Shown: positions 3,664-8,441 of the stretch, one piece after another
Numbering within the stretch: position 1 is the first letter of the stretch
How the letters are laid out: every line of letters begins with the position of its first letter
From: a bacterium
GTDB lineage: Bacteria > Coprothermobacterota > Coprothermobacteria > Coprothermobacterales > JAADFF01
Assembly (NCBI GenBank): GCA_027063755.1
Contig: JAMORD010000077.1
Span: 1-8,441 of the forward strand
DNA: 8,441 bases
Direction: 5' to 3'
Notes under the pieces: generated by a model
What the model was told of the DNA's origin: nothing
What the model saw: only the letters and a program-made list of their open reading frames with translations
Databases searched by the model: none
Program-made: the position numbers and the translations under genes

Positions 3664-3671
3664 CTCCTCCC
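3664..3671 (-). promoter_or_regulatory. Ribosome binding site deciding the MFS start
   Basis: On the minus strand GGGAGGAG runs from 3671 to 3664. It is immediately adjacent to the ATG at 3663, too close for initiation, and at workable spacing (9 bases) from the ATG at 3654. Confidence 0.75.
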
Positions 3672-3681
3672 ACGATGCGAT

Positions 3682-3694
3682 ATTATACTATACT
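3682..3694. promoter_or_regulatory. Overlapping divergent -10 elements between MFS gene and three-gene operon
   Basis: The minus strand carries a perfect TATAAT (3687-3682). The plus strand carries two tandem TATACT hexamers (3684-3689 and 3689-3694) that overlap it. No clear -35 box is visible on either strand. A plus-strand start from the second hexamer would fall near 3701, giving a leader of about 20 bases with its ribosome binding site intact. The minus-strand start would fall near 3675, just upstream of the MFS ribosome binding site. A short inverted repeat, ATGC (3675-3678) and GCAT (3697-3700), brackets the elements and could be chance. Confidence 0.5.
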
Positions 3695-3706
3695 TAGCAT
3701 GGGCTT

Positions 3707-3716
3707 GAGAGGTGAT
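3707..3716 (+). promoter_or_regulatory. Ribosome binding site supporting a TTG start
   Basis: GAGAGGTGAT precedes the TTG at 3721 with the same spacing (8 bases from AGAGG) that GGAGGTGAT has before the phosphoesterase ATG at 977. The alternative GTG at 3712 is part of this site itself and so cannot be the start. Confidence 0.75.
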
Positions 3717-3720
3717 TACA

Positions 3721-6318: not shown

Positions 6319-8061
6319 TTATTTGAGGTAGGATATAAAGTAGTCTTCTATAAATCTAAGAGCCTCTTTCCATATTTGAGGATTGGCTATATCTATATCC
6401 ATAAGCCTTAGAAGAAGAACTCTGGGATTTTCAGATCCTCCTGCTGCAAGAAGTTCTTTATATTTGTCTACGAAGCCTTCATATCCTTCTTTGTATCTCT
6501 TAAAGATAAGCAGAGACACAAGCTCTGCCAGTGTATAAGAGTATACATAGAATGGTGTGTGCAAGAAATGTGGTATACCAACCCACTCATCTTTATATGT
6601 TTCAGGATAGTCTACACTATCTCCAAAGAGCTTTCCATATGTTTCAAGGTAGAGCTCTGATAGATCATCTGGTGATGCCCCTTCTCTGGTGACTCTTCTA
6701 TGTGCTTCTCTTTCAAAGATATAGAATGTGTTTTGTCTAAAGACTGTTCCGATGATATCTTCTATCTTGCCTGCAATTTCAGATTCTACATTTATACCCT
6801 GATTCCTAAAGTAGTCATGAAGCAGAAATTCACCAAATGTAGATGCCACTTCTGCCAAGGCCAGTGGGGGATGGAAATTTAGCGGTGTTTGTTTGCCGGA
6901 TAGCACCCCGTGAACACCATGGCCTAGCTCGTGGGCTAGTGTTGCCACATCTCGTGATGTACCTGTGAAGTTTACCATGACATATACAGGTGCTCCAGGA
7001 GACTGATACATGCAGAAGGCACCACCCATTTTGCCTGGTACCGATGGGGCATCTATGCGATTTTCTTCAAAGAACTCTGCCACGATGTCGTATATCTCCT
7101 TGTCAAAGGAGGCAAGCGATGCGAGAACGGCTTCTTTGGCTTCTTCCCAAGAGAAAGTTTTCTCTTCTCCTACAGGTGCAAAGAGGTCATAGATAGGTAG
7201 TTTGTCTCCTGCGCCAATTTTCTTTGCTTTCCAAGACCAGTATTTCTGTGGTATATACATGTTTTCCCATACGATTTCGGCCATTGTATCTACAACTTCG
7301 TCATCTACATCGTTTTCTACATTACGCATAGAGACCGGTGATGGATATTTTCTTAGATCGGCTTCTTTGTCCCAGTCCATGGCAACTATGGAAAACAAGC
7401 CTCCCAATGTTTTTCTGTTATCTCTGAAAATACTTAACATAGTATCCCATGCCCATATTCTGTCTTCTCTTTTTCCAGACATACGCATTGATCGTATCTG
7501 GGGCATGGGTATCCATTTGCCATCTTTTTCTGCTCCCAGTGTGCCACTAAGTGTATCGTAGAGCTTAACAGCTCCACCACGACCCGTAGAGTTCTTTAAG
7601 GATACTATTTGTTCTCCCTCAGGAGAAAAGGTGTGTGGTGCTTTTCTCACAAGTTTTTCAAAGAAGTGTTTGTATGTCTCAAGAGAAGGATGTTCCATAA
7701 GAGATTTTAATTTTTCCACACCCAGACCAATAAAGGTAGAAGTAATTTTGGCAAGGTATCCTTCAATCTCACCCGATTCTGCCATCATAAGGCCCATATA
7801 CTTCTGAGCATCGGGATCCTGTGTGTTCTCGGCATATTTCAAATAAATATACGCAGATGCTATGCCTACCCTATGTAAAACCCTCTCTACCTTTACAATA
7901 ATATCCTTTATTTGTTCAGGATTAATGGGAGGTGATATAGCCCTTTGTGTTTCTTCTGCAAGGCTGCGGGCTTCTTCCTTTGCCTCTTTAAATATAGAAA
8001 TAGCCTGCTGAGCATTGTCAAGCAACAAGCTTAGGTCCCATCGTGGCAACTGCTTTTCCAT
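6319..8061 (-). CDS. pepF: Oligoendopeptidase F (M3-family zinc metallopeptidase)
   Basis: A 580-residue protein of normal PepF length. The zinc-binding motif HELGH is at 377-381 (TLAHELGHGVHG), and the third ligand is E404 in LAEVASTFGEFLLHD. PGKMGGAFC (342-350) is the conserved M3B substrate-loop motif upstream. The helical N-terminal domain (about 1-200) matches the oligoendopeptidase N-terminal region that encloses the active site, and the C-terminal YSYTLAELVSLLIFKRY is also typical. There is no signal peptide, so it should act in the cytoplasm on short peptides, in peptide nutrition or turnover. GAAAGGAGG at 8078-8070 lies 8 bases before the ATG. This site can be hidden in a stem formed with RNA from further upstream. 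The gene follows an unknown gene by 50 bases on the same strand. The symbol is given by family; paralogues are common. Confidence 0.94.
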   Translation of the reverse strand: MEKQLPRWDLSLLLDNAQQAISIFKEAKEEARSLAEETQRAISPPINPEQIKDIIVKVERVLHRVGIASAYIYLKYAENTQDPDAQKYMGLMMAESGEIEGYLAKITSTFIGLGVEKLKSLMEHPSLETYKHFFEKLVRKAPHTFSPEGEQIVSLKNSTGRGGAVKLYDTLSGTLGAEKDGKWIPMPQIRSMRMSGKREDRIWAWDTMLSIFRDNRKTLGGLFSIVAMDWDKEADLRKYPSPVSMRNVENDVDDEVVDTMAEIVWENMYIPQKYWSWKAKKIGAGDKLPIYDLFAPVGEEKTFSWEEAKEAVLASLASFDKEIYDIVAEFFEENRIDAPSVPGKMGGAFCMYQSPGAPVYVMVNFTGTSRDVATLAHELGHGVHGVLSGKQTPLNFHPPLALAEVASTFGEFLLHDYFRNQGINVESEIAGKIEDIIGTVFRQNTFYIFEREAHRRVTREGASPDDLSELYLETYGKLFGDSVDYPETYKDEWVGIPHFLHTPFYVYSYTLAELVSLLIFKRYKEGYEGFVDKYKELLAAGGSENPRVLLLRLMDIDIANPQIWKEALRFIEDYFISYLK

Positions 8062-8064
8062 ATG

Positions 8065-8106
8065 ACATGCCTCCTTTCAGATAGCATTTTACCATAGGAG
8101 ACATGC
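8065..8106 (-). promoter_or_regulatory. RNA stem that would hide the pepF ribosome binding site
   Basis: In minus-strand RNA, GCAUGUCUCC (8106-8097) pairs along its whole length with GGAGGCAUGU (8074-8065), using two G-U pairs. One more A-U pair (8096/8075) closes an 11-bp stem with a 20-base loop. The GGAGG of the pepF ribosome binding site is the 5' half of the right arm. The structure forms only in RNA that starts upstream of about 8106. Confidence 0.5.
8086..8094 (-). promoter_or_regulatory. Candidate extended -10 promoter for pepF
   Basis: TGGTAAAAT read on the minus strand fits an extended -10 (TGn followed by a hexamer with five of six consensus bases). The start would fall near 8079, giving a leader of about 18 bases that begins just before the ribosome binding site. 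No good -35 is visible, which is tolerated in extended -10 promoters. Confidence 0.5.
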
Positions 8107-8111
8107 AGTAT

Positions 8112-8441
8112 TTATGGGTATGATTTGATGTTGATAAACTCAGGATGATGGGCTGTTTCTGCTAATTCTACGGTTTCTTTGGAAATCTTCCTTACATTGA
8201 TAGTTTTATTCAATGAGGGGTCTATTATAAGTAGACCTACGCGTATATCTTTGATGCCCTCTTTATTTCTTAATTTCTCTATCATCTTGCTACTCCATAG
8301 TATAGCTTCATCTTCGGTAATGTCTGGTCTAACAATCCATACACCTATGTCCTTTATTGTGTATGAATCTTTGCCACACAGTTCTGGTACGATAAGAGTC
8401 CGAATTGTATCAATATTTCTTACCAACGAAGTGGATCTTAT
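8112..8441 (-). CDS. Uncharacterised protein, C-terminal part (5' end outside window)
   Basis: The frame is open from the right edge to a TAA at 8114-8112, giving 109 residues. A TTG at 8426 could be read as a start but has no ribosome binding site, and the frame stays open upstream (IRSTS...), so the true start probably lies beyond the window. I do not recognise the protein. It looks like a small soluble alpha/beta domain: hydrophobic strands DIGVWIVRPD and IRVGLLIIDPS flank a helix (about EDEAILWSSKMIEKLRN), and one cysteine lies near the start. There is no membrane segment in the visible part. It lies 50 bases upstream of pepF on the same strand and may be co-transcribed with it. Confidence 0.6.
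   Translation of the reverse strand: MRSTSLVRNIDTIRTLIVPELCGKDSYTIKDIGVWIVRPDITEDEAILWSSKMIEKLRNKEGIKDIRVGLLIIDPSLNKTINVRKISKETVELAETAHHPEFINIKSYP

Follow-up and report, generated by a model that had tools for sequence, protein, structure and literature searches.

A candidate promoter in the loop of a stem over the SD of an M3 peptidase gene: a possible translation insulator

The window, the whole stretch of 8,441 nucleotides that was analysed, corresponds to contig 77 in a draft genome of 1.5 Mb. Its minus strand carries a gene for an M3 family oligoendopeptidase (6319-8061, ATG at 8061). The best NCBIfam model for this peptidase is TIGR02290, with a score below the cut-off of the model, and the pepF equivalog model was weaker still. 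The gene named pepF in the earlier note encodes an M3 oligoendopeptidase, but the name itself is a loose one. Upstream lies the 3' end of a codirectional gene (8112-8441, minus strand), closed by a TAA stop codon at 8112-8114. The version of this gene in the only close relative found, JAADFF010000052.1 (genome G001), encodes a protein of 499 aa, for which no Pfam or NCBIfam family was matched. The order of the upstream gene and the peptidase gene is identical in the relative, and the neighbour is codirectional in both genomes. The tandem arrangement, regarded earlier as a possible operon, is supported. On this strand, no terminator-like site was found between both genes. A search of the window and of the relative's locus against Rfam, covering known riboswitch and leader families, gave no match at gathering score. 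A second M3 peptidase gene is present in both genomes (L031 in G000:C115 and L030 in G001:C21), with about 26-29% identity to that of the window. For L030, no similar leader or stem was found ahead of the start.

On the minus strand, the leader between the two genes contains a stem of 11 contiguous pairs, two of them G-U, in which 8106-8096 pairs with 8075-8065. The 11-bp stem described in the earlier note was confirmed at exactly these coordinates, and it buries the GGAGG of the peptidase gene. The 5' arm GCATGTCTCCT (8096-8106), the blocking one, was read directly and found by folding; its inner 8 nt are TGTCTCCT. The 3' arm AGGAGGCATGT (8065-8075) holds most of the SD (AAAGGAGG, 8077-8070). 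According to the predicted fold, a small inner hairpin (AUGGUA/UGCUAU, 8080-8095) would form within the loop of the long RNA, and the start codon would also be pulled into an outer helix (CCAUA with UAUGG). The stem is followed by CATATGGAAAAG and not by a T run, as would be needed for an intrinsic terminator. Folding of RNA from 8130 to 8040 gave a minimum free energy of -22.3 kcal/mol. Compared with shuffled controls this was a modest pass (z = -2.07), with six of 200 shuffles equally good. The z-values for folding of the whole leader were about -2.1 for the window and -1.5 for the relative.

An extended -10 element, TATGGTAAAAT (8086-8096, minus strand), is located in the loop of this stem, and its first T closes the stem. 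The core TGGTAAAAT at 8094-8086 is directly preceded by TA, hence the full TATG extension is present. The placement of an extended -10 in the stem loop is borne out by the sequence, and the element is a credible one. A sigma-70 scan including the -35 gave no match at this site, so the promoter call depends on the extended -10. We infer a transcription start at 8079, 7 nt past the -10, which would give an 18-nt leader. Furthermore, the sequence TGnTAnnAT was found 18 times at a distance of 4-11 nt ahead of the SD of non-divergent genes in the two genomes, compared with 4.9 occurrences expected from the density of the element farther upstream. RNA from such promoters would begin at the SD or shortly ahead of it. 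This enrichment makes short leaders from such promoters look like a habit of the genus, and the element of the window, as far as its sequence tells, fits the class of TGnTAnnAT elements close to the SD.

RNA initiated near 8079 would not contain the 5' arm, and its SD would be exposed, as had been proposed. The folding predictions agree with this. In the window, opening the SD was predicted to cost about 9.7-9.8 kcal/mol in the long RNA and 1.2 kcal/mol in the short RNA, whose 5' end was set 6-8 nt past the -10. For the relative, 10.5 and 1.5 kcal/mol were obtained. At 65-70 °C the predicted costs were 4.9-6.4 (long) and 0.7-1.1 (short).

The comparison of the leader comprises two sequences, the window and JAADFF010000052.1. 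The homolog search of genome contigs yielded this one close locus and otherwise distant homologs from Chloroflexi, and the leader was matched in two of nine genomes of the phylum. The relative keeps the promoter letter for letter. It has an 8-bp version of the stem, in which AGCA pairs with UGCU in place of the lost outer pairs. The inner part of its 5' arm is TGCCTCCT, compared with TGTCTCCT in the window; one U-G pair is thereby changed to C-G. The block CTCCTATGGTAAAATGCTATC is invariant and is followed in the relative by an insertion of 2 nt, by which the loop becomes 2 nt longer. Between the stop codon and CTCCT, five of 11 bases match. With regard to conservation of the stem, one of the checks named in the earlier note, eight of the 11 pairs are kept with one change that preserves pairing, but the outer three pairs are lost and no double change occurred. 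In simulations of neutral drift at 25-30% divergence, a helix of such strength persisted in 8-13% of the trials, hence conservation by itself gives weak support. The retained inner stem together with the change from U-G to C-G may be read as supportive but thin.

An inverted repeat which flanks a -10 could also be a DNA operator, with a repressor bound across the element. The spacing of the arms, however, differs by 2 bp in the relative, so that the half-sites would be turned against each other, and one of the arms is simply the SD. We consider this explanation hardly credible.

A chance origin of the stem requires closer discussion. CTCCT ahead of the -10 might be complementary to the SD by accident; the SD arm would then be held constant by the need for ribosome binding, and the 5' arm would have no function. 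Such drift as was simulated, and the restriction of the pairs common to both sequences to eight of 11, are compatible with this. In addition, a helix score of at least 21 was reached by eight of 569 tandem genes, the window gene and its ortholog counted and loops of up to about 70 nt allowed. Against a chance origin, however, stands the shuffling of the upstream 45 nt, during which promoter, SD and coding start were held fixed. The SD helix of the window was reached in 0 of 400 shuffles and its opening cost in three of 400; for the relative, 19 of 400 shuffles equalled its helix to the SD. Moreover, the only change within the inner stem strengthens it.

Two genome surveys speak against chance as well. 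Gene calling covered roughly 0.5 Mb of G000 and roughly 0.7 Mb of G001, and each SD was scored by its best helix with the 70 nt upstream. In this sample of both genomes, which comprised 839 genes with an SD, the helix of the window ranked second and that of its ortholog was in the top 16; the window gene was first among the 569 tandem genes. Of the 119 ortholog pairs whose starts agreed, that of the window gene had the strongest shared SD helix. The change in opening cost from the long RNA to the RNA of the nearest promoter-like site was used to rank 330 genes, which put the window gene in fourth place and its ortholog in 39th; on this measure the relative is less striking. Taken with these ranks, a stem arising by chance appears rather unlikely to us.

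Many of the other strong matches in the survey seem to be genes in divergent pairs, where a short promoter region serves both genes and the two SDs are complementary to each other. Examples from the two genomes are 3664-3720 of the window and the loci L093, L087, L127 and L155, all divergent pairs with very short promoter regions and complementary SDs. RNA across such regions could hide their SDs.

The frequency of such pairs among the top matches raises the question whether the stem of the window is left over from an earlier divergent pair. The 5' arm would then be the complement of the SD of a gene on the plus strand, and the promoter would have worked in both directions. TAGCAT is indeed present on the plus strand 8 nt ahead of AGGAG. 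The frame that follows, however, has six codons in both genomes, the two peptides are unrelated and their start codons differ, while the actual neighbour is codirectional in both cases. Thus, pairing of the SDs of a divergent pair does not explain the stem of the window, and a relic of this kind is very improbable.

We tentatively propose, with confidence just short of even, that the leader is a cis-acting translation insulator for the M3 peptidase gene. According to this model, transcripts that enter from the upstream gene would fold the stem which hides the SD, and would be translated poorly unless the stem is opened. RNA from the gene's own extended -10 would start at about 8079 without the 5' arm and with a free SD. 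The output of peptidase would consequently track its own promoter.

The earlier note regarded read-through transcripts as silent. We can only infer such silence, and the notion leaves out the ribosomes that finish the upstream gene. It is known that stems can couple translation when they are opened by terminating ribosomes. Like these stems, that of the window covers an SD directly past an upstream stop codon, here 5 nt ahead of the stem. A ribosome at 8114-8112 would occupy a large part of the 5' arm, and the SD would for the most part become accessible again. With a stopped ribosome taken as covering the RNA to P-site +15, the predicted opening cost of the SD in the window drops from 9.8 to about 2.5 kcal/mol. 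Translational coupling is therefore a real rival: ribosomes ending there would shield the outer 5' arm and so free the SD, the long RNA would be translated in step with the upstream protein, and the local promoter would be a second source. In the relative, however, the identical footprint leaves 5.3 kcal/mol, so the reopening effect is not equally kept. Furthermore, a promoter of its own would make coupling unnecessary for the peptidase gene. In contrast to the known coupling stems, the candidate promoter lies in the loop here, so that part of the RNA would never carry the stem. We judge coupling to be unlikely. For the translation insulator it follows from the ribosome's effect on the cost that silence of the long RNA would be expected chiefly where ribosomes do not reach the end of the upstream gene.

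The control logic of such an insulator is already known from phage T4. The longer early transcripts of gene e form an inhibitory structure, which lowers lysozyme about 100-fold, whereas late promoters just ahead of the RBS give RNA without the 5' part of this structure; similar leaders were described for soc, 49 and I-TevI (PMC3014915). Two features of this type are found in the window as well. SD and start codon are paired in the long read-through RNA by prediction, and by sequence the promoter is placed directly ahead of the RBS, so that its RNA would be without the 5' arm. At the level of mechanism, the comparison with gene e drawn in the earlier note seems apt. In T4, however, the late promoters are timed by the infection and the effect was measured, whereas in the window the gene is a cellular one, and its candidate promoter, seen in the sequence, is of the ordinary extended -10 type. 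Unlike in gene e, an upstream stop codon adjoins the stem.

By this analogy, it is possible, though somewhat doubtful, that a chromosomal bacterial gene follows the logic of gene e, with the choice of promoter deciding on translatability and the read-through RNA acting as a decoy. The literature was searched for cellular examples and none of direct relevance was found, which does not imply their absence. If the proposal is true, a scheme documented mainly in T4-like phages would also insulate ordinary genes in compact bacterial genomes, and would be used by such genomes where no terminator separates tandem genes. RNA-seq coverage of a gene of this kind would then overstate its translation.

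Two further cases were noticed in the surveys, both conserved in the two genomes. For the tandem gene of L167 (3708, minus) and L163 (9110, minus; reverse-strand coordinates) the layout is the same as in the window, but the case is weaker. Here, a terminator-like hairpin upstream has a T/C-rich tail able to pair with the SD, and GTAAAATGATATG is located in the loop that separates the two. L111 (6337, minus) and L081 (3508, minus), again in reverse-strand coordinates, have a tight stem at the SD, with a loop of 5 nt. This stem lies close to where the upstream reading frame ends and may couple translation.
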